Origin: a virus
Reading direction: 5' to 3' (one strand)
DNA length: 27,599 nucleotides
IMG/VR virus record: IMGVR_UViG_3300047494_000064
Location: 1-27,599 of that record
Positions 7,119 through 27,599 of this stretch are shown in pieces. The notes below the pieces were generated by a model. That model searched no databases. It had not been told where the DNA came from and saw nothing but the letters and a program-made list of their open reading frames with translations. The translations under genes were made by a program, and so were the position numbers. The first letter of the stretch is position 1. Each line of letters opens with the position of its first letter.

Positions 7119-10100
7119 TGCCGCAGGTGATGTGGACGCGCGAGATCGTCGGTACGCTTTCCGACCGGGTTCGCACGCATAACGAAAAGACCGCCGATCC
7201 GGCCGCCAAGACCAAGCTCGTGGATCTGAAAAAGGTTTATGCGCGCGGCTATCACGGCCGCGACGCCACCGCCTGCGCGGTCAACGCGCTGGCCAAGGTC
7301 GATCGCCACCTGGGCGGCCTGGAAGCGCTGGCCAAGGGCTTCGATGCGTCCAAGCATCCGCGCGGCAACAAGGGCGAATTCACGTCCGGCGGCAAGAAAG
7401 GGGGCAGCGCCGGTATCGACGCGATCCCTTTGCCCAAGACGGCACGCCAGCACGCCAAGCTGCAGGAGACGAATGCTGCCTACCGCGCGCTGACCAGCGA
7501 CGTGGTGCCTGAGCGCCGCAACGAAGTCATCGGCGATTGGGCGCGTGAGCTGGGTTCAACGGCACTCGGCGCGGGCCTGGTGCTCAGCCTGGCCCATGGC
7601 GGCAGCAAGGGCATCGCCGCGCGCATGATCCGCGACGCAGGCCGCCGCGCCGGTGGGCTGGCCTTCGGCATCCCCACGGCCGCCGTCACCTACACCGCCA
7701 CCGGCGCCAAGCGCGCGGTGACCGGCAAGATCGCGCGCAGCTTCGGCCGCACGGTGCGCGACGGCGAATACACCGCCGCGAAGCACACCACGGAAGCCGC
7801 CACCAAGGCCGGGAAATTCGCGGGCGAGAAGGCGGGCTCGGCTGTCGTGGCCGGTGCGCGCCTGCTGGTGGACAGCGCCAACAAGGCGGGCGGCGACCTG
7901 CTGCACCGCAAGGCCGCCAAGGTGGCCACGCTGGGCGGTCTGTCGATCGGCGCGGGCCAGCTCATCAACAGCCAGATCGAGGGCGGCGCCGTGGATCCAG
8001 GACGCATTGGCGCGGGCTACGACGCGTTCAGCTACCGCACGATCGAGAAGATGGCCGGCGGCGCCGACGCGCTCGATGCGCTGGCGGGCGAGTATCTGGC
8101 CAAACTGGCCAGCGGCGACGGCCAGGCGCTGGCCAAGGCCGGGTTCTACAATGCAATCGGCATGCGCGTGCTGCCGGCGCTTGCCGCCGTGGGTGGCGCT
8201 GCCGTGGCTGGGGGCACTGCCGAGGCGGTGCATGCCGTCGCCGGCAACCGCACCTATAGCCGCGACGCGCATGGCCGCTTCACGAGCAAGGCCAACGCGA
8301 TCACCGCGGGCTCTGCCCTGGCCGGTGCGCTCGCCGCCGGCGCTGGCGCCTATCTGGCGCTGCGCCACCACAACGTCCGCCAGCTGGTCAGTCACGTCGA
8401 TGCGGTGGCCGATGTGATCGGCAAGCGGCTCGAGGAAGCCGCCCACCGCGACGGTGTCGGCCACGTCGCCGACCTGATCCAGCAGGGCAAGGAAAAGCTG
8501 ACCAAGCTGCATGCTGACCGCGCCATCGCGATCAACACGCGCCTGGGCAAAGACGAGGAATACCTCGCCGAGCGCAAGCGCCTGGACAGCTTCGCCGGAT
8601 CGTCCGACGTCCACCTGAAATCGCACATCCGCCGCGAAGTAAACGGCAAGCTCGCCGAAATCCTGTCGCAGCATAACGATTTCCGGGTGCCGGGCACCGA
8701 CCGAGATCCGGCGAAGTGGAAAACCATCGGCGAAATCCGCAGCGCCGCCACGCCGCTGAAAGCCGACAAGGCGGCCTACGACTCTGTGTTCAACGCCGTG
8801 GATAGTGCCACGCCGAAAGAATTCAGCCAGGCGATCGCCAACCTCACGCCGGGCCAGCAAGAGACGGCGCTGCATTGGCTTTCCACCCGCGACCGCGCAA
8901 TCGAGGCGGTGCCGGCCGATGTGAAAGCACATGTGGATAAGATCGCGGCCGCCGAGCAGAAGGTCGCCGCCGCGACCGATGCCGCCGAGGCCAAGCGCAC
9001 CGCGATGCTGGACGCCAAGGCTGTGGTCGACCGCACCACGGACGAGGGCGAGAAGGCTACCGCGCAGGCTGCCTTCGATGCCGCCAATGCCGAGCACGAC
9101 AAGGCCGGCAAAGCCGTCGAAGCCGCCAGCAAGGCGCTGGGCAAGCTGCGCGACGCGCCGTCCGGCGTGAAGTCGCCGGTGACCGGCAAGCTGATCCCGC
9201 CCGCCACCGAGGCCGAGCTGCAGCCGCATTACCGCCAGGCGCAGCAGACCGCGTATCGCCGCGCCGAGAAGATCGTCGATCGCGACATCGACAAGGCGCA
9301 CAAGAAACACGCCGCCGATGTGGCCGAGGCGCGCGCCCAGCAGATGGCGCAGATCACGCTGCAGGGCGACCGCATGCTGGCCGCGCGTGCGGCACTCGGC
9401 CATTCGCTGGGCGTGCTGCCGGACAAGGCTGCCGCCGCCGGCATCCAGGCCGCCGCGCTGCGTCGTTTCATCAGCCGCGCCAAGGGCGAGCTGACCACCG
9501 CGCGCGCCGACCAGGCCGCTGCGGAAAAGCGCGTCGCCGATTTGAAGCTGGCGCGCAAAGGCAAAGTGCCGAGCGGCATGACGGCGGAAGACACCGCCGC
9601 GATGGTGCAGAACGTGCACGCGGTGCACGACGCGCTGACGTCGGCCAAGCTCCGCGTCAGCGCCGCCGAGGCCAAATTGAGCGCGCGCCAGTTCCTGCTG
9701 CGCAAGCACAGCGCGCGATTCCTCAGCGCGGTGCATGAACAGCCTGTGGTGGAAGGCCGTGTCGGCAAACTGCCCACGTCGGTCTACCGCAAGCTGCTGC
9801 GCGATGTGACGCGCGCCACCGAGGATCTGCACAAGCCGGTCAACCGCTTCCTGCACAGCCCATCGGCGCAGGCGTTCAAGAATTTCGCCACGGCGACGGG
9901 CGATCATATCTGGGGCGGTGCGACGGCGGCCGCGCACGCGTTCCGCGATCTCTATCGCCACACGCTGATGCGCAAGACGGGCGAGGGGCCCGACGACTGG
10001 ACCATCGATCCGGCCAAGGTGCTGATCCGTGGCGGCCTGGGTGTCGTGGCCGGCGACGTCGCGCACGATCTGTATCATTACGGTAAAGATCAGGCGACGC

Positions 10101-12232
10101 ACGCGTTGGGCATGGGCGACGGCAAGCCGTCGAAATTCCCGCGCTCGATCAAGATCGAAAAGCATGTCGATCCCTACACGGGCGGCGGCTTCGTCGGTCT
10201 TTCGGTGGCCGATCCGGACCCGGAGAACAAGGGCGACCGCGTTCTGCTGTGGGGCGAGCACTACAAGGATCACACCGGCCGCGCCGAGCAGCTGCATCCG
10301 GGCGCGCGCGTCTCCGCGCTGCGCAACCGTTTCCAGAACGGCCAGGGCGGTGGCGGCGGCAGCACGTTCGTGCCGAGCGACCGCGATATCCCGAACCTGC
10401 CCGAGCACGAGAAGGGCCAGGTCAAGGCGTCGCTGGGCAAGCTGAAAGACCGCATGCATACCGTGCGCGTCGAGGACGGCCACGAATTCAAGCTGCGCCC
10501 GAACAGCGACAGCGGCGAGGATGCAATCGCCGGCAAAGTTGTCGATCACATCAAGCGCAGTTTCCTCAACAGCGGCTCGCCGTCCACCGGCAAGCTGTAC
10601 CACGGCGCGTTGGCCGCCACGCTCGGCAGCAACCAGGGCCGTATCCTCAAACAGCGCCAGGTCTACGAACTGCTGACCGGCTTCCCGGCGCGCGGTGGCG
10701 ACAAGCTGGCAGGCCACGGGATCTTCGAAACCGGCAAGGACAGCGATTTCGGCGAGACGGATAACAAGGCCGGCGTGCTCGATGCGCTGAAAGACGAAAT
10801 GAAGCGCGCGGTGGGTGCCCACGCGCCCGCCAACGACGTCGAAAAATCCAACATGATGCGCGCCGCCGCCGTGGTCGGCCGCCAGAAGGGTCTGTCCGAC
10901 GAGGATCTGAAAAGCGTCTACGAAATCATCCGCGGCAAGCCGGAAACCACGGCACCGGCGGCGCCGCGCATGGTGCAGGCCACCGTGCCCAGCGCGCCGA
11001 GCAGCGGCAAGATCACCGCCGCGTCCGAGGTTGAGGCCGACGCCGGCGGCTGGGACCCCAAGGTGCTGCGCGAGAAATCGCTGCCGCACGCCACCGCCGT
11101 GGCGAAAAGCCTGGGCATGAACACCGAGCGCAAGATCGCCGATACCGCGACGGCGCTCGAACACTTCGCGCGCCAGGTGCATGTCACGCACGGCCTGCCG
11201 ATGCACGAATCGCTCTACGCCGCTGCCAACGCGGTGAAGAACGCCACCGGCACGAGCACGGGCGAGAAAACCATCACGCGCGACGCGCTGGCCGATGTCG
11301 ATGCCGACCATTTTGCGTCGCATCTGAGTGCGGCGGCCGACGACGAGCTGGATCGTTACGAGAAAAAGAAGAACGTCCGAAAGGTCCACGCGCTCGATGA
11401 TCTCGAAGCGCTGGTCAAGGGCGCGTTCGGCGACGCCATCGATGCTGCATCCGGCGCCTGGGAAGGCGAGACGCGCGTTCCGAGCGGGCCGGGCGGCGGT
11501 GAATTCTCCGGTGGCGGCGGCAAGTCCTTTGCGACCCGGTTCGCCCGCAAGGCCGCGCAGCGCCTGCCGCGCGAGGGTGTCGATGAATCCGTCGATCGCG
11601 GTGCCAAGGGTGCGGTCACCGAGCGCAGCGCCACCGGCTCGAATTACACGCCGACGAAGGTGGCGGGCGACATCGGCGGTCTGGCGCTGGGCGAGGCCGG
11701 TGCCTACGCCATCGGCAAGCTGTTTCCCGAGGAAGCCGCCGGCGTGAGCCTGATCGGCGCGGTGCGCCAGGCCTTCAAGTCGGATGGCGCGGGCGCGGCG
11801 GCACAGGCGGCGCTGAAACACGTCGCCGCGGCGCCGGGCCGCGTTGCGCGCTCCGTGCCCAAGCTGGCCGCCACGAGTGCTGCGGGCCTGGCCGGCTACA
11901 CCGCCGGCAGCATGGCGGGCGAGGGGGCTGCGCGGGGCATCTACGCCGCCACAGGGCGCAAGGCGCCGGAAGCGGCACCGCCGCAGCTGAGCGTGGGCGA
12001 GGGCGTCGCTGAATCGCTGGGCAGCATCGGCGGCGCGATCCTGGGCGGCACGTTCGGCGCCGGCGTGGGCTCGATCGCCACCGGTGCTGCCGGCGGCTAC
12101 GTCGGCGGCATCGTCGGCCGCAACGTCTATGACGCGGGCGCGGCGCTCGGCCATCTGTTCACCGGCTACGGCGACAAGGGTGCGCGCACGGTGGCGCATC
12201 TGCGCCGCGCCACGCAGCCGGTGCGGTCGTGA
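7118..12232 (+). CDS. Giant head-module protein, 1704 aa, unknown; candidate ejected or polyvalent protein
   Basis: Starts at ATG 7118 overlapping the protease stop (TAATG). No enzymatic domain was recognised. Visible order: helical N-terminus with the only cysteine (Cys53); linker FDASKHPRGNKGEFTSGG near 75-92; Gly/Ala-rich hydrophobic stretches at about 144-200, 351-371 and 394-415, the last two separated by linker YSRDAHGRFTSK (380-391); long coiled-coil-like region centred on 612-680 and continuing to about 900; a beta-rich, Gly-rich centre (about 1000-1130); helical region to 1440; third linker VPSGPGGGEFSGGGG (about 1455-1469); and C-terminal Gly-zipper stretches (1571-1607 and 1634-1667, GGAILGGTFGAGVGSIATG). 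One cysteine in 1704 residues and membrane-active-looking zippers would suit a protein threaded out with DNA. Large polyvalent proteins of phages are another fit. Both are inferences. Confidence 0.85.
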   Translation: MPQVMWTREIVGTLSDRVRTHNEKTADPAAKTKLVDLKKVYARGYHGRDATACAVNALAKVDRHLGGLEALAKGFDASKHPRGNKGEFTSGGKKGGSAGIDAIPLPKTARQHAKLQETNAAYRALTSDVVPERRNEVIGDWARELGSTALGAGLVLSLAHGGSKGIAARMIRDAGRRAGGLAFGIPTAAVTYTATGAKRAVTGKIARSFGRTVRDGEYTAAKHTTEAATKAGKFAGEKAGSAVVAGARLLVDSANKAGGDLLHRKAAKVATLGGLSIGAGQLINSQIEGGAVDPGRIGAGYDAFSYRTIEKMAGGADALDALAGEYLAKLASGDGQALAKAGFYNAIGMRVLPALAAVGGAAVAGGTAEAVHAVAGNRTYSRDAHGRFTSKANAITAGSALAGALAAGAGAYLALRHHNVRQLVSHVDAVADVIGKRLEEAAHRDGVGHVADLIQQGKEKLTKLHADRAIAINTRLGKDEEYLAERKRLDSFAGSSDVHLKSHIRREVNGKLAEILSQHNDFRVPGTDRDPAKWKTIGEIRSAATPLKADKAAYDSVFNAVDSATPKEFSQAIANLTPGQQETALHWLSTRDRAIEAVPADVKAHVDKIAAAEQKVAAATDAAEAKRTAMLDAKAVVDRTTDEGEKATAQAAFDAANAEHDKAGKAVEAASKALGKLRDAPSGVKSPVTGKLIPPATEAELQPHYRQAQQTAYRRAEKIVDRDIDKAHKKHAADVAEARAQQMAQITLQGDRMLAARAALGHSLGVLPDKAAAAGIQAAALRRFISRAKGELTTARADQAAAEKRVADLKLARKGKVPSGMTAEDTAAMVQNVHAVHDALTSAKLRVSAAEAKLSARQFLLRKHSARFLSAVHEQPVVEGRVGKLPTSVYRKLLRDVTRATEDLHKPVNRFLHSPSAQAFKNFATATGDHIWGGATAAAHAFRDLYRHTLMRKTGEGPDDWTIDPAKVLIRGGLGVVAGDVAHDLYHYGKDQATHALGMGDGKPSKFPRSIKIEKHVDPYTGGGFVGLSVADPDPENKGDRVLLWGEHYKDHTGRAEQLHPGARVSALRNRFQNGQGGGGGSTFVPSDRDIPNLPEHEKGQVKASLGKLKDRMHTVRVEDGHEFKLRPNSDSGEDAIAGKVVDHIKRSFLNSGSPSTGKLYHGALAATLGSNQGRILKQRQVYELLTGFPARGGDKLAGHGIFETGKDSDFGETDNKAGVLDALKDEMKRAVGAHAPANDVEKSNMMRAAAVVGRQKGLSDEDLKSVYEIIRGKPETTAPAAPRMVQATVPSAPSSGKITAASEVEADAGGWDPKVLREKSLPHATAVAKSLGMNTERKIADTATALEHFARQVHVTHGLPMHESLYAAANAVKNATGTSTGEKTITRDALADVDADHFASHLSAAADDELDRYEKKKNVRKVHALDDLEALVKGAFGDAIDAASGAWEGETRVPSGPGGGEFSGGGGKSFATRFARKAAQRLPREGVDESVDRGAKGAVTERSATGSNYTPTKVAGDIGGLALGEAGAYAIGKLFPEEAAGVSLIGAVRQAFKSDGAGAAAQAALKHVAAAPGRVARSVPKLAATSAAGLAGYTAGSMAGEGAARGIYAATGRKAPEAAPPQLSVGEGVAESLGSIGGAILGGTFGAGVGSIATGAAGGYVGGIVGRNVYDAGAALGHLFTGYGDKGARTVAHLRRATQPVRS

Positions 12233-12489
12233 CGTTCAGCACAGGCGGCGGTGGACCGTCGGGCACGTCGATGCCCGGCACCACCTTCGCGCAGCCCACG
12301 ACGCCCACGACGGGGCTGCAGCGATACGACCTGGAAGGGTCGGTCAAGAACCTCAATCCGAATTCACCGCGCACGGCACTGCTTCGTTCGCGGTTGAAGC
12401 GCCTCGCTGCTTTGCGCGGGGACCAAAGCGCACGCCACTCGGCGCGCCAGACCAGCGGTCACCAAACCGCGCTTAAAAAGGATCATCCC
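12229..12489 (+). other. Capsid N-arm-like segment in frame upstream of the scaffold
   Basis: The frame opens at GTG 12229, overlapping the giant gene by GTGA, and runs without a stop into the scaffold frame. Bases 12280-12360 encode TTFAQPTTPTTGLQRYDLE followed by GSVKNLNP, which matches capsid residues 27-53 (ATFTQPTQPTIGLQTYNLE, then APAKNLYP) at 17 of 27 positions. After about 12378 codon choice loses its G/C bias and the DNA looks like spacer, including GGGGACCAAA (12418-12427). It is either the remnant of a duplicated capsid 5' end or a real N-terminal extension giving a 555-residue scaffold isoform. No ribosome site is visible at the GTG. Confidence 0.6.
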
Positions 12490-13896
12490 ATGTCGTTGCG
12501 AGGCACCATCGAGGCGATGGTCGGCACGCTCTCGAAAAGCGTCGCTGACATCAATAGCGCAGGCGGCGATGCCGCGCTGCTGACCAAAACCTTCACGGAA
12601 TTCACCGACGGCTTGTCCGGCCTGGTGGATGCCGACCTGGCCAAGCGCGCGCCCGTCGAGGAGCCGCTTTACAAAGGCCTGGGCACCGTGGGCCGCGTGG
12701 CCAACCTGCTGGGTTGCGTCGCCGAGCGCGTGGAAGCGATCCGCGCCGGTTACGACAACAAATGGCAGATGCCGAGCGAGAACGGCCCGAGCAACAAGAT
12801 CGAGCCGAGCGACGTGCCGAGCGCCGACGTGGCCGACCTGCTCACCAACGTCGTGCATATGGCCGAGCTGGCGCTGCGCGCCGCGGTGAACGAGCACGTC
12901 ACCCTGGCCGATGACGATGAAGTCGAGAAGGGCGCGCCCGCTGGCTTCGAGCTGATCCAGGTGCCGGACGGCGACGATCCCAACACCTACGCCGTGCTGA
13001 AAACCGCGCTGCCGGAACCGCTGGCGAAATACGCCACCGATCCGAACGTGCTGCAGGACGCGATCATCGAGAATGGCCTGGCCACGATGATGGCGGCCGG
13101 CGTGCCGGAAGAAGCCCTGAGCAAGCTGTTCGATGAGGGCGGCGAGGCGCTGGCCAAGAAATTCCCGCCCAAGAAAAACCCCGACGGCAGCGATGCCGGC
13201 GACGGTGCGACGGGTGGCGATGGCACGGGTTCGGACGCCGCCATGCAGGCGACGCCGCCAGGCACTGACGGCACGACCGCTGGCGCCGGTGGCGCGGGCG
13301 ATGCGACCGACGGCACCACCGATCCGAACAGCGACGGCACCGATCCGAACGGCGACGATCCGCTGTCGATCGCGCTGCGCATCTGGGCGGCGCTCGGCGT
13401 GCAGCTGAACCACATTTCGGATCTCGTGAATGGTGGCGACACCACGAGCGACGGCACCGGCCAGTCGGCCGATCCCGGCACCGATCTTGGCCAGGGCGGC
13501 GATGCCGTGACGAAATCGGCGACCGGTGGGCGCACGCTGGATTTGGCCAAGCGTCACGTCGCGGCGCCGGATGCGGCGACGACGAATCCCGCGCTGGAAG
13601 AATTGGCCAAGCGTTTCGATGCGCTGGCGGCCGATAGCGAGAAGAAGAGCGCGGTCATCGATGAGCTGGCCAAGGGCATCGAGCTGCTGCTCGCGCAGCC
13701 GCAGGCGCCGAAGGGTGCGGTCCGCGCGGTCCCAGCCCCGAACAAACAGAACGATGCCGGCACGCTGCAAAAGAGCGCCGATCAGATCATCGCCGAGGAG
13801 AAGGAGCGACTGGAGAAAATGGCTCCGGAAGATCGCGCGATGGAGCTGATTAAAATCTCGCAGCGTAATCCGGAGCCGAACCCCCGCAACCGTTAA
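12490..13896 (+). CDS. Probable capsid scaffold protein (468 aa)
   Basis: ATG 12490 was chosen because AAAAAGGA (12475-12482) lies seven bases upstream; the frame is open back to 12229. The gene lies directly before the capsid, the usual scaffold place. The protein is acidic and largely helical: an N-terminal helical domain (SLRGTIEAMVGTLSKSVADI), a middle with EALAKKFPPKK, a long Asp/Gly/Thr linker (about 235-340) with imperfect tandem repeats of GTDPN type, and a C-terminal helical, charged tail (QIIAEEKERLEKMAPEDRA), the type of end that contacts capsid in scaffold proteins. Function is inferred from place, charge and shape; no decisive motif was seen. It is followed by a strong terminator. 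Confidence 0.65.
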   Translation: MSLRGTIEAMVGTLSKSVADINSAGGDAALLTKTFTEFTDGLSGLVDADLAKRAPVEEPLYKGLGTVGRVANLLGCVAERVEAIRAGYDNKWQMPSENGPSNKIEPSDVPSADVADLLTNVVHMAELALRAAVNEHVTLADDDEVEKGAPAGFELIQVPDGDDPNTYAVLKTALPEPLAKYATDPNVLQDAIIENGLATMMAAGVPEEALSKLFDEGGEALAKKFPPKKNPDGSDAGDGATGGDGTGSDAAMQATPPGTDGTTAGAGGAGDATDGTTDPNSDGTDPNGDDPLSIALRIWAALGVQLNHISDLVNGGDTTSDGTGQSADPGTDLGQGGDAVTKSATGGRTLDLAKRHVAAPDAATTNPALEELAKRFDALAADSEKKSAVIDELAKGIELLLAQPQAPKGAVRAVPAPNKQNDAGTLQKSADQIIAEEKERLEKMAPEDRAMELIKISQRNPEPNPRNR

Positions 13897-13945
13897 ACGG
13901 CGGCGGCAAAAAACCGCATTATTTTTTAAAATAGTGCTTGACCAG

Positions 13946-13973
13946 GGGACGAGCCGAACGGCTCGTCCCTTTT
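13946..13973 (+). terminator. Intrinsic terminator between scaffold and capsid genes
   Basis: A perfect 10-bp stem, GGGACGAGCC (13946-13955) and GGCTCGTCCC (13960-13969), with loop GAAC, followed by TTTT (13970-13973). It lies 50 bases after the scaffold stop and before the capsid leader, so capsid transcription needs readthrough, antitermination or a separate promoter. Confidence 0.85.
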
Positions 13974-13976
13974 CAG

Positions 13977-14111
13977 TTGAGCGGCAGTTTCTCGAAAACT
14001 GCTGAGCACAGCAGGGGTGTTACCCCCTGATTGCTCGTCACCCCCTGCTTGAGCCGCAGGTCCTGGCCCGTAACCGCCGATGGGCCGCGGCAGTGCTCAA
14101 GGGTGACGATT
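13977..14111 (+). promoter_or_regulatory. Structured leader of the capsid gene with mutually exclusive helices
   Basis: The 5' leader holds a 7-bp hairpin GCAGTTT/AAACTGC (13984-14002) and three competing pairings. CAGGGG (14012-14017) can pair with CCCCTG (14024-14029). GCAGGGGTG (14011-14019) can pair with CACCCCCTGC (14039-14048) with one bulge. CGTCACCC (14036-14043) pairs perfectly with GGGTGACG (14101-14108), which covers the ribosome site AAGGGTG of the capsid gene; CTTGAGC (14049-14055) with GCTCAAG (14095-14101) can stack next to it. The second and third pairings exclude each other, so the leader could switch capsid translation on and off. The pairings are seen; the regulation is inferred. 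Confidence 0.5.
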
Positions 14112-15605
14112 ATGTCGACCGATGCAACTCTGGCGCTTTTGCGTCAGGCCCTGGCCAACGCGGGTAATCCCGCTGAGCTGGCCAAGAATGCGACCTTCAC
14201 GCAGCCCACTCAGCCTACGATTGGCCTGCAGACCTATAACCTCGAAGCGCCGGCCAAGAACCTGTATCCGGTTCTGTCGCCAATTCGCAACAAAATGCCT
14301 CGTGTGAAAGCCACGGGGGGCGTTCAGGCTAACTGGAAGGCGGTCACTGGCATCAACACAGCGTTCGTCGGTGTTGGCGTTGGCGAAGGCCAGCGTGGCG
14401 GCGTTCAGTCGGTCAGCACGGCGGAATTCTTCGCTGCGTTCCGCACGATCGGTATCGAATCGAGCGTGACCGAAGAAGCCGATCTGTCGGCGGAAGGCTA
14501 CGATGACCTGCGCGCTCGCGCGGCGAATTCGAACCTGCAAGCGCTGATGATCGAGGAAGAGCGCATCATCGTTGGTGGTTTCTCGTCGGTTGGTCTTGGC
14601 ACCACCGGCACGCCGACGCTGACCACGTCCGTCACCGGCGGCGCGATTGCCGCCACCACGGTCGTGTCGGGCAACTGCGTCGCGCTGACCATGGACGGCG
14701 TGCGCAACTCCAACACGATCCAGGCGCCGAATGTCGTGCCGGCCACCATCACGCGTAACAACGCTGATGGCACCACCACGACCTATAACGCGGGCGCTGC
14801 GCAGCGTTCGGTCGCGTCGAACATCACCACGGGTGCCGGCGGCGCCAACTCGGTGACCGCCAGCGTCCCTGCCAAACAGGGTGCCGCGGGCTATGCCTGG
14901 TTCGTCGGTCCGGTGGGCGCGGAAGCGTTTTACGGCATCACCAACTACAGCCAGGTTGTGATCACGTCGATCCCGACCAACGCCTCACTGTCCACCGCGC
15001 TGACCGCTGACTACTCGAAGAACGGCACCGTGTTCGATGGCCTGATCGCCCTCAACGCGAACCCGTCCAGCAATGCCTACTGGCATGCGATGACGCCCGG
15101 CACCGGCCTGACGGCCGATGGCTACGGCGGCATCGTGGAATTCGAGAACGTCCTGCGCTGGTATTACGACACTCTGCGCGGCACGCCTTCCAAGATTTGG
15201 GTGGCGTCGCAGGAAATGCAGACGATCCGCACGAAGTTCCTGGCCGGCAACGGCTCGCAGCCTTCGCGCTTCGTCTTCCAGATCCAGCAGGGCACCATCC
15301 AGGGCGGTGGCATTCCGAAGGGCTATCTGAACATGTTCGCTGGCGCTGCCGGCGGCAATTCGGAAATCCCGCTGGAAGTCCACCCCTATCTGCCGGCCGG
15401 CACGGTCATCTTCGAAATGGAGACGATCCCCTACCCGCAGAACAACATCAACAACGTCAAGCAAATCCTTTCGCGCAAGGATTATCACCAGCGCGAATGG
15501 CCGCAGATTACGCGGTCGTATCAATACGGCGTCTACTCGGATGAGGTGCTCCAGCACTACTTCCCGGTGTCGATCGCCGTCATCAGCAACATCGCCCCGG
15601 TCTAA
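14112..15605 (+). CDS. Major capsid protein (HK97 fold), 497 aa
   Basis: ATG 14112 follows the ribosome site AAGGGTG; the frame is open back to 14031 but the upstream part is structured leader. The N-terminal arm (ATFTQPTQPTIGLQTYNLE, NLYPVLSPIRNKMPRV) and the E-loop/P-domain order (FFAAFRTIGIESSVTEEADL, RWYYDTLRGTPSKIWVASQE, then YQYGVYSDEVLQHYFPVSIA) are those of HK97-fold capsids. Residues about 159-300 look like an inserted beta-rich, Thr/Gly/Ser-rich domain (GYAWFVGPVGAEAFYG), possibly an Ig- or fibronectin-like decoration. GGT, CGT, GTT and GCT codons are more frequent than in neighbours, as in a highly expressed gene. It is bracketed by terminators on both sides. Confidence 0.9.
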   Translation: MSTDATLALLRQALANAGNPAELAKNATFTQPTQPTIGLQTYNLEAPAKNLYPVLSPIRNKMPRVKATGGVQANWKAVTGINTAFVGVGVGEGQRGGVQSVSTAEFFAAFRTIGIESSVTEEADLSAEGYDDLRARAANSNLQALMIEEERIIVGGFSSVGLGTTGTPTLTTSVTGGAIAATTVVSGNCVALTMDGVRNSNTIQAPNVVPATITRNNADGTTTTYNAGAAQRSVASNITTGAGGANSVTASVPAKQGAAGYAWFVGPVGAEAFYGITNYSQVVITSIPTNASLSTALTADYSKNGTVFDGLIALNANPSSNAYWHAMTPGTGLTADGYGGIVEFENVLRWYYDTLRGTPSKIWVASQEMQTIRTKFLAGNGSQPSRFVFQIQQGTIQGGGIPKGYLNMFAGAAGGNSEIPLEVHPYLPAGTVIFEMETIPYPQNNINNVKQILSRKDYHQREWPQITRSYQYGVYSDEVLQHYFPVSIAVISNIAPV

Positions 15606-15630
15606 CCGAGGCGGCGTCGCGAAGCGGCAG

Positions 15631-15656
15631 CGGCGGGGGTCACACCCCGCCGTTTT
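15631..15656 (+). terminator. Intrinsic terminator after capsid gene
   Basis: Stem CGGCGGGG (15631-15638) with CCCCGCCG (15645-15652), 6-base loop, then TTTT (15653-15656). It begins about 25 bases after the capsid stop and insulates the lipoprotein gene from capsid transcription. Confidence 0.85.
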
Positions 15657-15695
15657 CGTCTCCGCGCTATTCCACCCCAGCAAGGATACGCCGAC

Positions 15696-16055
15696 ATGAA
15701 CCGTTCGACCCTTTTCTTCGCTGCCCTGGCCTGCACGCTCGCGGTCAGCGCATGCGCTCCCAAGACGGCGCCGGTGACGAGCGCCCCTGTGGTCACCGCC
15801 CCGGTTGCGCCGGCGCCCGCGCCGACCACAGCGACGAAGGTGGCCACCGCTGTGAGCAAGGGCGCGGCCCTGCTGCAGACGCTGTGCACCGACGCCCAGA
15901 CGGGCGAAGTATTCATCAATATCTTCGACCCTTCGTTGATTCATGCGAATAAGGGCACGGTGAATATTGCCAACGCGTCCTGCGCGCTGGTGGGTGCTGT
16001 GGCCGCCGCGAACGCGCCGGTGACTACCGCCGCGGCGCCGCCCGCCACGCCGTAA
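15696..16055 (+). CDS. Small exported lipoprotein, phage-encoded (119 aa)
   Basis: ATG 15696 has AAGGAT 10 bases upstream. The N-terminus is a classic lipoprotein signal: Asn-Arg, hydrophobic core LFFAALACTLA, and lipobox V17-S18-A19-C20, so Cys20 would be lipidated. Residue +2 is Ala, which in Enterobacteria favours the outer membrane. A Pro/Val/Ala/Thr linker (about 22-45) tethers a small domain of about 55 residues with two cysteines (LLQTLCTDAQTGEVF, NASCALVG), then an Ala/Pro tail. It lies alone between two terminators in the structural module, typical of a moron. Phage lipoproteins such as T5 Llp and TP-J34 Ltp block superinfection; that role here is only inference. Spanin or host-like lipoprotein are alternatives. 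Confidence 0.75.
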   Translation: MNRSTLFFAALACTLAVSACAPKTAPVTSAPVVTAPVAPAPAPTTATKVATAVSKGAALLQTLCTDAQTGEVFINIFDPSLIHANKGTVNIANASCALVGAVAAANAPVTTAAAPPATP

Positions 16056-16072
16056 AAGGCTGGCGGAAGGCC

Positions 16073-16151
16073 GGGGGCTGTGCCCCTGGACACGAGGCGC
16101 TGAGCGCCAGACGAGGGGTGGACCGGCAGCGGCCCACCCCTTTCTGTTGTG
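16073..16151 (+). repeat. Intergenic terminator cassette, copy 1
   Basis: Contains a small hairpin GGGG(G)..CCCC followed by CTGGACACG (16073-16094), then a terminator and TTTCTGTTGTG. The same order (hairpin, CTGGACACG, CCGGCA-CGG-cored terminator, TTTCTGTTTGTG) recurs at 16519-16579 after the next gene, showing that the two spacers are paralogous. Confidence 0.65.
16115..16143 (+). terminator. Intrinsic terminator after lipoprotein gene
   Basis: GGGGTGG (16115-16121) pairs with CCACCCC (16134-16140) around an inner CCG-GCAG-CGG hairpin (16123-16132) with one A-C mismatch, followed by TTT at 16141-16143 and a T-rich stretch. The core design matches the terminator at 16544-16570. Confidence 0.75.
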
Positions 16152-16210
16152 TGCCGTAACGTCGATTTATTCTTGTGTCACACTGGAATGTGTGCTTGGG
16201 TGCGCGCCTT

Positions 16211-16220
16211 CATGTGATCC
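16211..16220 (+). promoter_or_regulatory. CATGTGATCC box upstream of the six-cysteine gene
   Basis: CATGTGATCC occurs 55 bases before the ATG at 16275 and again, as a tandem, at 22473-22492 in the control region of the minus-strand regulator island. A weak promoter-like pair (TTGTGT 16147-16152, TATTCT 16168-16173, spacing 15) and a short inverted repeat CACAC/GTGTG (16180-16195) lie upstream of it. It is a candidate operator; binding is inferred. Confidence 0.35.
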
Positions 16221-16274
16221 GGGCCTGTCCGTTCCTGTGCGCCCGCCGCGCCGCGCGGCCTAGGGAGACTCCAC

Positions 16275-16514
16275 ATGAAGTCGATTATCGCAACCATCCT
16301 CCTCGCGTCCGCGTGTCTCGCGGGCACCTGTGCAACTTCCGCGTTCGCGCAGAGCGGCCAGATCAAGAAGTGCATGCCGCACTGCAATGAGCCGCCGCCG
16401 GCGCCGTCGGTGGCGCTGCTGACCGTGGCCGCCATTACCCCCGTGCATAATTTCGCGGACAATGGCCCGATCAAGTGCTGCCAGTTCATTCCAAACAGCT
16501 GTAGCTGCAAGTAA
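16275..16514 (+). CDS. Secreted six-cysteine miniprotein, phage-encoded (79 aa)
   Basis: ATG 16275 follows GGGAG (16263-16267). Residues 1-25 are a Sec signal peptide (Lys2, hydrophobic SIIATILLASACLAG, cleavage likely after AFA25). The mature 54 residues hold six cysteines at 33, 37, 68, 69, 76 and 78 (C-x3-C ... CC-x6-C-x-C), an even number suited to three disulfides in the periplasm or to metal binding, with a Pro-rich and then hydrophobic centre (APSVALLTVAAITPV). No known family was recognised. It stands alone between two related terminators, like a moron. Superinfection exclusion or host-envelope effects are possible, but function is unknown. Confidence 0.65.
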   Translation: MKSIIATILLASACLAGTCATSAFAQSGQIKKCMPHCNEPPPAPSVALLTVAAITPVHNFADNGPIKCCQFIPNSCSCK

Positions 16515-16518
16515 AGTC

Positions 16519-16579
16519 AGGGGCGTTCCCCCTGGACACGGCAGGGCGGTCCGGCAACGGGCCGCCCTTTCTGTTTGTG
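16519..16579 (+). repeat. Intergenic terminator cassette, copy 2
   Basis: Second copy of the spacer cassette: hairpin GGGG..CCCC and CCCCCTGGACACG (16528-16540), then a terminator and TTTCTGTTTGTGG. Compare 16073-16151. GGGGACCAAG follows at 16581-16590. Confidence 0.65.
16544..16570 (+). terminator. Intrinsic terminator after six-cysteine gene
   Basis: GGGCGG (16544-16549) pairs with CCGCCC (16562-16567) around an inner CCG-GCAA-CGG hairpin (16551-16560), a T-G wobble joining the two, then TTT and a T-rich tail. Same core as the terminator at 16115-16143. Confidence 0.8.
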
Positions 16580-16643
16580 GGGGGACCAAGGCCGCCTAAC
16601 CGAAATGCCGCCACGTCGCGCGGCGACATTTTGGAGATTTACC

Positions 16644-17021
16644 ATGGCACAGTTGAAGCTTCCCGATGGCGTTGGCTCTGCCTCGCACGGCGCCTTTTCC
16701 TTCGTCGGCGATGACGCCGGCATCATCGACACCAAGGACGCACCCGAAGAAGTTGTGCGCCACCTGATCGCTTATGCCGGCTGCCGCGAAGCGACGGACG
16801 AGGATGTCGAAAAAGCCGACCAGGCGACGGTGTTCGCCGAGAAGGTTGTCGATGCGAAGGCCGAGAAAGCCGACCTGATCGAAAAGCTGAAAGGCTTTGG
16901 CGTCGCCGTCGATGGCCGCGCCACGCTGACCAACCTGCGCCGCATGGTGGCCGAGCACACCGCCGCCGCGCCGGCCGCCAAGCCAGCCGACGACAAGGGC
17001 AGCGACAAGCCGAAGGCGTAA
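16644..17021 (+). CDS. Small phage protein with HeH/LEM-like C-terminal motif (125 aa)
   Basis: ATG 16644 has TTGGAG (16631-16636) as ribosome site; the longer frame upstream runs into a terminator. The N-terminal half is a small domain with DGVGSASHGAFSFVGDD and CREATDEDV. Residues about 75-107 (KADLIEKLKGFGVAVDGRAT, then LTNLRRMVAEH) fit the helix-extension-helix/LEM-like pattern often found in small phage capsid-region proteins. It ends with an Ala/Lys/Asp tail. Its place right after the capsid cluster and before the connector genes suggests a head accessory protein. A DNA-binding role is possible but unproven. Confidence 0.65.
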   Translation: MAQLKLPDGVGSASHGAFSFVGDDAGIIDTKDAPEEVVRHLIAYAGCREATDEDVEKADQATVFAEKVVDAKAEKADLIEKLKGFGVAVDGRATLTNLRRMVAEHTAAAPAAKPADDKGSDKPKA

Positions 17022-17023
17022 CG

Positions 17024-17638
17024 GTGTCCGACAACCCGCCCACCTACACCGGCATCGATCCCGGTGAATCCATGTCCGTGCTTGGCCCCATCGTCACGGT
17101 GGACCAGGCCGGCGCATGGATGCAGCTGCCGAACCCGGAGGATGATGACCTGCTCGAACAGGCCGTCATCGCCGGCAACGCGGCATTTGCCAGCTGGCTG
17201 GGCTGGGACCCGCGCGCGATGCGGACGGTGGAACTGGTGGACGTCACCGGCGGCAAGTCGGTGCGCGTGCATCGCAAGAAAATCACCGCCGTCAACGCGC
17301 TGACCTTCATGCCGCCGGGCTGCGCGCCCGTGCCGCTCAACCTGAATTTCGTCTCCTGGGATCCGCGCGTGCCGCTGATCACCAACGCCTGCGGGATGCC
17401 GCGCAGCCGCAACAGCCTGCAGTGCGACTACCAGGCGGGCTACGATACGCTGCCGAACGATCTGATCCAGTGCTTCCTGTGGACGATCAAGGCGCATTAC
17501 GACGCCAGCGGCGTGGACCAGAACGCCACCGGCGAGAGTTTTTCCGGCGTGCTGTCGCAAACCTTCCACGCCGCCGGCGCGGGCTTCGTGCCGCCGGCCG
17601 CGATGAGTTCCGGCGCGCGCTACCGGCTCGAGTACTGA
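17024..17638 (+). CDS. Head-tail connector protein, HK97 gp6-like (204 aa)
   Basis: Starts at GTG 17024, two bases after the previous stop. Residues 30-60 (QAGAWMQLPNPEDDDLLEQA, VIAGNAAFASWLGWD) resemble the helical core of gp6/gp15-like adaptor proteins, whose ring docks on the portal, followed by beta strands (RTVELVDVTGGKSVRVHRKK) and C-terminal helices (DLIQCFLWTIKAHYDASGVD). The usual adaptor is about 100-200 residues, so this is full length. The following genes are the expected stopper, gp10-like and tail-terminator set. Coupled by TGATG to the next gene. Confidence 0.75.
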   Translation: MSDNPPTYTGIDPGESMSVLGPIVTVDQAGAWMQLPNPEDDDLLEQAVIAGNAAFASWLGWDPRAMRTVELVDVTGGKSVRVHRKKITAVNALTFMPPGCAPVPLNLNFVSWDPRVPLITNACGMPRSRNSLQCDYQAGYDTLPNDLIQCFLWTIKAHYDASGVDQNATGESFSGVLSQTFHAAGAGFVPPAAMSSGARYRLEY

Positions 17639-18231
17639 TGGCCCGCCACCTCGCGCAGCTGTTCGCCAACGCGCTCAAACGCCGCGGCCGCGTCATCACG
17701 CTGCGCACCGTCACCATGGGCGCAGGCGGCCCGATACCGGCGCTGCTGAGCACTCCCGTGCTGATGTCCGACCTGCTCAATGGGGCCACGGCGTTCAACC
17801 TGGCCTGCACGTCGGCCAGCGGCTCGCTGATGCCGGGCGACGTGATCGCCTTTGGGGCGGCGAAAGTGACGGTGGCGGCGCCTGTGCAGGCAACGCCGCT
17901 GTCGGCCACGTCCAGCCCCGGCTTCATCGCCGTGCAGCTCAGCGAGCCGTACAGCGGCGCCACGATCCCGGCCGGCACGGCAGCCAGCCTCACCTTCGCG
18001 GCCGACGTGCCGATCTACGCCATGGTCAACGCCTATCCGGTCAACCTGGTGGACGGCAAACTGATCGAGGCGTTCGACCTGCGCGTGGTCATCGCCGCCT
18101 GGCAGCAGGCCACGCCAGATCCCGCGACGCAAAAACTCGTCATCGACGGCCAGGTGCGCTCGATCCTGCGCGTCGATCCGACCTATGGGCCCGGCGGCGA
18201 GCTGGAGAAATGGGCGGTGCAGGCGCGATGA
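17638..18231 (+). CDS. Probable head-closure (stopper) protein (197 aa)
   Basis: ATG 17638 overlaps the connector stop (TGATG). The protein is beta-rich, with repeated Thr/Ala/Gly strands in the middle (a possible inserted beta domain, about 35-125), and ends VIDGQVRSILRVDPTYGPGG and ELEKWAVQAR, similar to the end of head-closure proteins, which finish with a strand pair and a terminal W-x-V-x-x-R. The position between connector and gp10-like gene fits. The assignment depends mainly on place. It overlaps the next gene by ATGA. Confidence 0.55.
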   Translation: MARHLAQLFANALKRRGRVITLRTVTMGAGGPIPALLSTPVLMSDLLNGATAFNLACTSASGSLMPGDVIAFGAAKVTVAAPVQATPLSATSSPGFIAVQLSEPYSGATIPAGTAASLTFAADVPIYAMVNAYPVNLVDGKLIEAFDLRVVIAAWQQATPDPATQKLVIDGQVRSILRVDPTYGPGGELEKWAVQAR

Positions 18232-25309: not shown

Positions 25310-27599
25310 GGTGCACAATCCAGCGGTAATAGCAACGACGTAGCGTCGCTCGGCTTCGCCGTCGACAGCCAGCCCGTCGTCGCGGCGACCACCAACCTCG
25401 ACGCGCTGCGCGCCTCGGCCGACAAGCTGGCCGAAAGCCACGACCAGCTCACCCAGCGCACCCAGCGGTTCTTGGCCATCGCGCAGGACATGGGCGAGTC
25501 CACCGCCCAGATGCGCCGCCAGTTCCAGGACGCCAGCCAGTCGCTGGACGGCCTGATCCAGACGCTCGACAGCGCCCGCCAGCGCATCGACGGCACCACC
25601 GCCAGCTTCACCGCGCTGGCGGCCGCCCAGGGCCAGGTGGCGGCCCTGGGGCAGTCGTTTGGCGTCACCAGCGCGGGCATCGAGGATTTCACGCGCCAGG
25701 CGCAGGTGCTCGGCCTCTCGGCGGGCCAGACCACGCTCGCCTTGCAGCGCATCACCGAAGCGCTGAACAACCAGACGCTGGCCGGTCAGCAGGTGCGCGA
25801 GCAGATCCGCGGCCTGGGCGTGGATTTGGCCGGGCTAACCGCCAACGACGCCGGCGGCGTGCTGGCCAGCGTGGTTGCCCGCCTGCGCCAGACGCAGGAC
25901 GGCCTGGGCAAATACCAGACCGAAAGCGGCATCCTCGGCATCACCGATCCCGGCACGCTGTACGGGCTGAACACGCCGGGCTACATCACTACGGCGCAGC
26001 GCCGCGATCTCGGCTACCAGCAGGCCGCGCGCCGCCAGATCAGCCAGACGACGCAGCTCGTCTCGACGGGCGAACGCCAGCTCGGCCTGGATAATTCCGA
26101 ATACGACGATCTGAACGGCCAGTATAACGTCGATCGCAATATCTTCTCGCGCCAGAGCAACGTTTTCAGCGGGCTCAGCGCCGCGCAGGCGTCGCAGCTC
26201 GCCGCCGCCGTCGGCCTGCCATCCGACGATACGTTCAGCAGCCAGGACTCGCGCCTGGCCGTGCTGCGCTACCTCGCCGCGAACCCCAACAGCGACCTGG
26301 CCAATTCCGCGCGCCGCCCGCTGGCCTCGCTCGATCGCAGCTTCGACCAGAGCTACCTCGGCGGTGCGTATCGCCACCTGACCGACGGCACGTACTCGAG
26401 CAACGAAAGCGACATCCAGTATCAGTTCGATCAGGATGCGGCGCGCTCGCCGTTCGGCCGCGCCGGCGCCTTCTTCTCGGCGCAGGGCCGCGAGATCGCC
26501 AACGCGTTCAACCTCTACACGCCCGAGCAATCCACCGGCGATAACCGCCCGCAGGACGCCGACACGACGATCCGGCAGGACAATGCCGCCGGCGACCGGC
26601 TGAGCAATTACGGCGATCGCACGCTGTCCAACTACCAGGCGATCGGCGGCTCGATCCGCACGCTGCAGGACCCGGCCGCGCTGGCCGACTACACGCGCCT
26701 CTACGGCACGCAGGAAGGGCAGGCGCGCTACTACAACACCCTGGCCGGCTTGAAGCGCAGCCAGGCCACGTCGCTCGTCACCGGCGGCGAGCAGATCCAG
26801 GATGCCCAGCAGCAGGGCTATGTGCTCGGCCAGCCGCTGGCGGACCGCCCCGAGCTGCAATCGCTGCTGCAGTTCATGGGCACGCTGTCCGACCAGAAGG
26901 ACAATATCCCGGCGCTGTTCACCGGCAGCAAGCCGATGTCGATTTCCGACATCCTCAACCCCAACGGCACGTCCGGGGGTCCAGGGGTGCTCACGCAGCA
27001 GGAAACCCAGGCGTTCCAGAAGCTGTATGCGCAGCAGCAGGCCAACCGCCAGACCGAGAACGATCAGCAGTTCGGCATCCGCATCGGCGACGCGCAGCAG
27101 ATCACCGCCGCGTCCGGCGAGGGCGGCCGTGCCGTCGAGGACGCCACCGCGCGCATCCAGGCCTACAACAAAGCCATCGCCGACGGTCTGAATACGACCA
27201 CGGCGGTGGCGCAGGCCGAAGCCGAGCTGACCGAGAAGCGCAAGGCATCGGACGCCGCGCTCCAGGAAAGCCAGCGCATCGCCAGTGCGCAGGCGACCGC
27301 GCTCCTGGCCGCGACGGCGGCGGCCGGCAGCAACCCGGTGCTGCGCCAGACGGCGGCGCTGAACCAGGGCCTGTCGAACGATTACGAGACGGCCTATCTC
27401 GCCGGCAAAACCAATCTGTCCTTTGGCCAGTATTCGGCCGGGCAGCGCCGCGCCTATGGCAACCAGGCGCTGCAATTCGGTTCCGACCAGGTGGCGTCCG
27501 CGCAGGAAAACCTGCTGCACGCCGGCGACGGTTTCGGCGCCAACGCCGAAGAACAGCAGCGCAGCGCGCAGGTGTTCAAGGATTTCAGCGAGGCGCTGG
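25304..27599 (+). CDS. Tail tape measure protein, N-terminal part (runs off window)
   Basis: The frame is open from the first in-frame start after TAA 25261 (ATG 25304) to the window end, at least 765 residues. The N-terminus has the tape-measure look: FAVDSQPVVAATTNLDALRA followed by long coiled coil (KLAESHDQLTQRTQRFLAI, MRRQFQDASQSLDGLIQTL) and AGQTTLALQRITEALNNQTL. The rest is Gln/Ala/Asp/Ser-rich, helical, without cysteine, with a second coiled-coil part near residues 610-670. It sets tail length and is often ejected before DNA. It follows the chaperone pair and intervening genes. A hydrophobic or lytic domain, if any, lies outside the window. Confidence 0.85.
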   Translation, partial: MSGAQSSGNSNDVASLGFAVDSQPVVAATTNLDALRASADKLAESHDQLTQRTQRFLAIAQDMGESTAQMRRQFQDASQSLDGLIQTLDSARQRIDGTTASFTALAAAQGQVAALGQSFGVTSAGIEDFTRQAQVLGLSAGQTTLALQRITEALNNQTLAGQQVREQIRGLGVDLAGLTANDAGGVLASVVARLRQTQDGLGKYQTESGILGITDPGTLYGLNTPGYITTAQRRDLGYQQAARRQISQTTQLVSTGERQLGLDNSEYDDLNGQYNVDRNIFSRQSNVFSGLSAAQASQLAAAVGLPSDDTFSSQDSRLAVLRYLAANPNSDLANSARRPLASLDRSFDQSYLGGAYRHLTDGTYSSNESDIQYQFDQDAARSPFGRAGAFFSAQGREIANAFNLYTPEQSTGDNRPQDADTTIRQDNAAGDRLSNYGDRTLSNYQAIGGSIRTLQDPAALADYTRLYGTQEGQARYYNTLAGLKRSQATSLVTGGEQIQDAQQQGYVLGQPLADRPELQSLLQFMGTLSDQKDNIPALFTGSKPMSISDILNPNGTSGGPGVLTQQETQAFQKLYAQQQANRQTENDQQFGIRIGDAQQITAASGEGGRAVEDATARIQAYNKAIADGLNTTTAVAQAEAELTEKRKASDAALQESQRIASAQATALLAATAAAGSNPVLRQTAALNQGLSNDYETAYLAGKTNLSFGQYSAGQRRAYGNQALQFGSDQVASAQENLLHAGDGFGANAEEQQRSAQVFKDFSEAL

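Follow-up and report, generated by a model that had tools for sequence, protein, structure and literature searches.

In RNA phages of the MS2 type, the capsid protein controls translation through an RNA hairpin, the coat operator. Pseudoknotted leaders near the ribosome site are common among riboswitches, and the SAM-II and preQ1 riboswitches possess strongly conserved bases in their ligand pockets. Phages must produce capsid protein abundantly and in the correct proportion to scaffold; to our knowledge, few RNA-level controls of capsid protein in tailed phages have been well studied. In PMC3014915, two leader pseudoknots are described as translational operators: that of T4 gene 32, which acts autogenously and is kept in some related phages, and that of rpsO, the gene for ribosomal protein S15.

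The window analyzed here is the whole of a 27,599-base virus record, IMGVR_UViG_3300047494_000064. By homology, 14112-15605 is a capsid gene: the distant homologs of its product are annotated as major capsid or major head proteins in Arthrobacter and Alicyclobacillus phages. An AlphaFold2 model of the capsid fold (mean pLDDT 54) was too poor for use, and no solved structure related to the window capsid protein was found. The leader of this gene contains, at 14033-14091, a new and vertically inherited leader RNA. The best reading of this RNA is a cis-acting translational operator that doses capsid synthesis in a tailed-phage lineage, a reading to which we give about even odds. The features of the locus are as follows.

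13938..13973, + strand: TTGAC-led, terminator-like hairpin (z -6.0; short U tract)
14004..14036, + strand: upstream hairpin (14012-14017 with 14024-14029), from folding; the window sequence is not conserved
14033..14091, + strand: conserved core RNA element (A, arm, P1, A', P2, C, C'), from a covariance model and 20 contigs
14033..14036, + strand: A, the GCUC strand, pairs with A' at 14051-14054 (80/80 cells, 20 members)
14037..14043, + strand: arm between A and P1, complements the Shine-Dalgarno region in the window and some relatives
14044..14060, + strand: P1 hairpin of 4 bp (14044-14047 with 14057-14060; 80/80 cells pair)
14065..14086, + strand: P2 hairpin of 5 bp (14065-14069 with 14082-14086; 99/100 cells pair)
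14088..14091, + strand: C', CGGC, pairs with C in the P2 loop (80/80 cells)
14095..14100, + strand: A2, GCUCAA, alternative partner of 14049-14054 (the A' region), from listed pairs and a swap test
14099..14109, + strand: Shine-Dalgarno region AAGGGUGACGA, 3' partner of the arm (14101-14107/14037-14043 at 0.90-1.00)
14112..15605, + strand: capsid gene by homology (497 aa; phrog_13692 match)

The leaders that were read share a common layout of GCUC, a variable arm and a 4-bp hairpin with a GAGC loop, followed by a 4-5-bp hairpin with a GCCG loop and then CGGC. In the window, the P1 loop carries A' (GAGC, 14051-14054) and the P2 loop carries C (GCCG, 14076-14079). The A:A' variants are GCGC/GCGC in L008 and L156, GCUC/GGGC in L013 and GCUU/GAGC in L479, and C:C' reads CCGC/GCGG in L300 and L472. 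Inserts of up to about 85 bases lie between the modules in L011, L013, L238, L472 and L479. An earlier note on this stretch, made from the letters alone, had missed the conserved parts 14033-14036/14051-14054, 14044-14047/14057-14060, 14065-14069/14082-14086 and 14076-14079/14088-14091, and what it had proposed is not the conserved architecture, in which each of two hairpin modules can pair its loop with flanking sequence. As true pseudoknots, the A:A' and C:C' loop pairings are putative. The linkers before C' measure 0-2 bases, which is short for a classic pseudoknot, and therefore loop pairings and hairpins may be alternatives that do not coexist. A further P2/C-like module stands directly 5' of the start codon in L239, L255, L246 and L242, with a compensatory change in its C:C' pairing in the L239 group (GCCGC/GCGGC versus ACCGC/GCGGU).

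Pairing was scored in a 20-member alignment built manually with knowledge of the pairing, and in MAFFT alignments made from sequence alone, which are less biased and whose rows were cut by hand. Among 8 MAFFT rows, 98.5% of cells pair, compared to 30.8-44.5% when the partners are slid by 1-3 columns; the corresponding numbers for 14 rows are 93.5% and 26.6-44.7%. In the hand alignment (n = 20), P1 pairs in 80/80 cells against a swapped mean of 68.4, and P2 in 99/100 cells against 78.4, with 0/20,000 swaps as high in both cases. The results for A:A' (80/80 cells, p 0.004) and C:C' (80/80 cells, p 0.007) in the same alignment are weaker. On the capsid tree, the minimum number of both-sided changes is 1 for A, 8 for P1, 11 for P2 and 6 for C. 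P1 and P2 evolve by compensatory substitution, with at least 8 and at least 11 both-sided changes, respectively; the 6 changes in C are two register shifts (one-base, two members), and the A:A' support is one both-sided event. The earlier note had suggested that a structured regulatory leader precedes the capsid gene and had named covariation among related phages as a check; the covariation found here supports this.

The symmetry of these strands could also belong to a DNA-level site for packaging, recombination or regulator binding that merely resembles RNA structure. A fixed position before a late gene would suit such a site, but the substitutions preserve pairing and not sequence, with G-U pairs included, and the loop-flank pairings would seem to have no obvious DNA counterpart; we consider this reading very improbable. 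Unpaired positions mostly carry 0.1-0.9 bits, except for the base before GAGC (1.53 bits). This low conservation is more in keeping with structure or protein binding than with a pocket for a small molecule.

Altogether, 20 distinct phage contigs carry the element before a homologous capsid gene: the window, L007, L008, L009, L010, L011, L013, L014, L015, L113, L143, L156, L158, L238, L239, L246, L255, L300, L472 and L479. The near-identical copies L121, L249 and L154 were left out of this count. Relatives were collected through the capsid protein as the nearest 80 of 542, 80 of 282, 80 of 517 and 80 of at least 578 matches, so that the carrier frequency describes nearest relatives and is no census. 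Capsid identity among the carriers goes down to about 42%. On a capsid tree of 94 rows, reduced from 139 distinct ones, a single branch separates the 20 carriers and L242 from the 73 other rows. An ordered two-module descriptor matches 18/20 carriers (it misses L158 and L246) and 0/73 others, while single-module descriptors are less specific, matching 3/73 and 14/73 other rows. L242 is a variant with a P1-like hairpin and the near-start P2/C-like module, and fails the ordered descriptor. The element is co-inherited with the capsid gene; given its single-branch distribution and the specificity of the descriptor, it was probably gained once and kept with this gene as capsid identity fell to about 42%.

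In leaders of capsid homologs without the element (e.g., L164, L204, L297 and L004), a different small hairpin, CCGGRGACGG, recurs. It was found in 24/109 distinct loci and in 0 of the element carriers, at 0.97 per kb in leaders (+ strand) versus 0.007 per kb elsewhere. Rfam gave no match in the L164 and L297 leaders and only a chance-level snoRNA in L204.

Since the capsid protein was the route to most members, their position before its gene is partly built in. Less biased checks of position were provided by a DNA pattern scan and a whole-record model search. The pattern scan yielded 53 stretches, of which L113, L121, L127, L133, L140 and L143 were real by eye, and all six precede a capsid gene; L127, L133 and L140 add no new contig to the set, and the L121 leader is the same as that of L010. 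In a second pattern scan, 80 of at least 120 stretches were scanned with the model, with a best E of 0.014. Twelve stretches have a ribosome-site arm, and four of their loci are among the model-search sources. The covariance model, trained on 8 rows, scores 79.2 bits on the window, itself a training row. It matched the leaders of 8/12 non-training carriers at E <= 0.05 (L300, L156, L238, L008, L255, L239, L014 and L011), whereas L246, L479, L472 and L013 were missed or weakly scored. The matches in L238, L008 and L011 overlap the element without aligning end to end because of inserts. Other locus matches at E <= 0.05 were L331, L396 and L398, all pattern-selected loci. The whole-record search covered 21 records, 20 of them from viruses, and its additional matches were the tail-tube leader of L014 (0.011), a second match in L011 adjoining the first (0.020), and a site at 27054 of the L300 record that overlaps open frames (0.001). 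In the L014 phage, one P2/C-like module (L319:988-1014), with a terminator-like hairpin after it, stands upstream of a tail tube gene.

Another candidate reading is a riboswitch that senses a small molecule and acts through a translational expression platform. That L239, L255, L246 and L242 have second modules would agree with it, as would the frequency of pseudoknotted leaders near ribosome sites in that class. Against it, the unpaired positions are little conserved, and in the sample studied the element occurs only before phage structural genes. Bacterial genomes of the host-like phylum gave matches in 3/398 cases at E <= 0.01, all weak, with two mispaired positions in L527 and one each in L526 and L528, and with a 47-base loop in L526; no capsid motif was found in the 3 kb examined near these three matches. 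Rfam 15 (4227 families) returned 0 matches on the window at the gathering threshold, the single signal near the leader being mir-298 at 18.4 of 80 bits and on the opposite strand, and two matches at E <= 1 on eight relatives, both far below the gathering score. A riboswitch is thus rather improbable. No account of the element was found in the literature searched, which took in few subscription journals.

The leader is more stable than shuffled sequences both at 13976-14130 (z = -3.98, 0/200 as stable) and at 14033-14111 (z = -4.76, 0/200 as stable). The earlier note had viewed it as a three-way switch, in which 14036-14043 pairs with 14101-14108 to hide the ribosome site, 14039-14048 pairs instead with 14011-14019 to free it, and 14012-14017 pairs with 14024-14029. 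The hiding helix was confirmed in the computed fold: 14036-14043 (CGTCACCC) and 14101-14108 (GGGTGACG) are perfectly complementary, the helix can be extended by one pair (14035/14109), and seven of its eight pairs (14037-14043/14101-14107) have probabilities of 0.90-1.00 in the nested partition function of 14004-14111. The remaining pair, 14036/14108, reaches just 0.16, as 14036 is preferentially engaged by the upstream hairpin. The nested fold of the window is therefore in a closed state, with the ribosome site occupied by the arm. P1 in this fold has a probability of 0.001 and the A and C pairings 0.0, values to be read with the exclusion of pseudoknots from the nested model. For the freeing helix, the complementarity exists, with one bulged C, but its probability is 0.0 at all nine pairs in the nested fold of 14004-14111, and forced together with P2 it reaches -23.0 versus an MFE of -56.4 kcal/mol. 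The short pairing does form (0.93-0.97) but coexists with the Shine-Dalgarno helix and does not compete with it. No equivalents of either alternative helix were seen upstream in the relatives read, where other sequences stand at the place of the upstream hairpin (14004-14036). The long helix was accordingly rejected as a conserved switch, the three-way scheme is not supported, and we give next to no credence to the release of the ribosome site by 14039-14048/14011-14019.

The same note had placed a strong terminator ahead of the leader. A strong hairpin is indeed present (13938-13980, -24.9 kcal/mol, z = -6.0), but the 13946-13974 hairpin is followed by just UUUU and is not among the terminators listed by a scan of the window. 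TTGAC or TGACAGGG occurs upstream of the element in 13/20 carriers (L255 doubtful). This TTGAC (TGACAGGG in L014) lies 32-98 bases 5' of the element and usually opens a hairpin. No promoters were found in 10000-18000 of the window, including at TTGAC.

Further upstream, at window 12250-12429, the protein encoded 5' of the capsid gene opens with a duplicate of the N-terminal segment of the capsid protein. The shared motif is TFxQPxxPTTGLQxYDLE, and the window copy has 48% identity over 50 aa. Such copies are present in six carriers (the window, L007, L009, L013, L113 and L143) and were not seen in the 9-10 kb around L156, L238 and L239. In L010, a tRNA-Met gene on the opposite strand (L010:2720-2796) lies directly 5' of the leader, at a place taken by a protein gene in the window and several other carriers.

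The A' strand of the window can alternatively pair with GCUCAA just 5' of its ribosome site. Comparison of own with swapped duplex energies in 12 members showed a modest excess of complementarity over the swapped controls for arm:SD (p 0.015-0.03) and for A':A2 (p 0.012). Over 13 members, leader occlusion of the ribosome site has a mean z of -0.5, and family-wide occlusion is not supported. Shuffles as low in this test number 6/100 for the window, 3/100 each for L156 and L472, and 100/100 for L158; in L158, L113, L300 and L013, most shuffles occlude the ribosome site more. A conserved tail hairpin enclosing the ribosome site (CACA-SD-UGUG), which occurs in several members and is absent in the window, was also rejected (mean z -1.1 over 13).

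The main rival to the operator is a 5' mRNA stability or processing element, whose compact structure would guard the capsid message against decay or flag it for processing, while the ribosome site would not be switched. Among 13 members, the distance from the end of the core to the start is 19-36 bases, and on average the ribosome site is not occluded, both as expected of such an element, and the lack of conservation at unpaired bases also agrees with it. However, a stabilizer would have no need of near-invariant GCUC/GAGC and GCCG/CGGC strands, and the window and some relatives do pair their ribosome site. We regard this rival as possible, though on the unlikely side.

For the translational operator, we propose two modules, each of which would combine a short hairpin with a loop-to-flank pairing: P1 with A:A', and P2 with C:C'. 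With the modules folded, or kept so by a bound protein, the downstream ribosome site would be open. Once the modules come apart, the region of the ribosome site could be closed through pairing with the 5' arm and with the A' strand. We infer both this direction of regulation and a protein signal, which may be capsid, scaffold or a host protein. A compact leader RNA kept across capsids of about 42% identity would offer a test of cis control over capsid dosage that can be mutated arm by arm, and the element would add a family to RNA catalogues.

Compared to the described systems, the T4 gene 32 leader pseudoknot is the nearest in kind (PMC3014915). Both would be pseudoknot-type structures in a tailed-phage mRNA leader, 5' of the start codon. 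In contrast to the single module before a gene for an ssDNA-binding protein in T4, two modules precede a capsid gene here, and no A+U-rich repeats were seen in the capsid leader. The gene product here is, by homology, a capsid protein and not a single-strand nucleic-acid-binding protein. The rpsO operator belongs to a bacterial ribosomal protein gene, and the capsid leader has no match to any Rfam family. The SAM-II and preQ1 riboswitches are likewise short pseudoknots near the ribosome site, with the loop-flank pairings of the capsid leader putative; unlike theirs, its loops vary, and again Rfam holds no match. The more specific proposal of a double-pseudoknot operator, a new RNA class for autoregulation of tailed-phage major capsid with capsid or scaffold protein as the signal, seems unlikely to us. 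If true, it would represent a tailed-phage counterpart of the coat-operator control of RNA phages, kept since the ancestor of the capsid clade. Were the capsid protein to bind its leader, the logic would be the same as in the MS2-type operator, realized in a different virus class, at a different gene position and with a different RNA.
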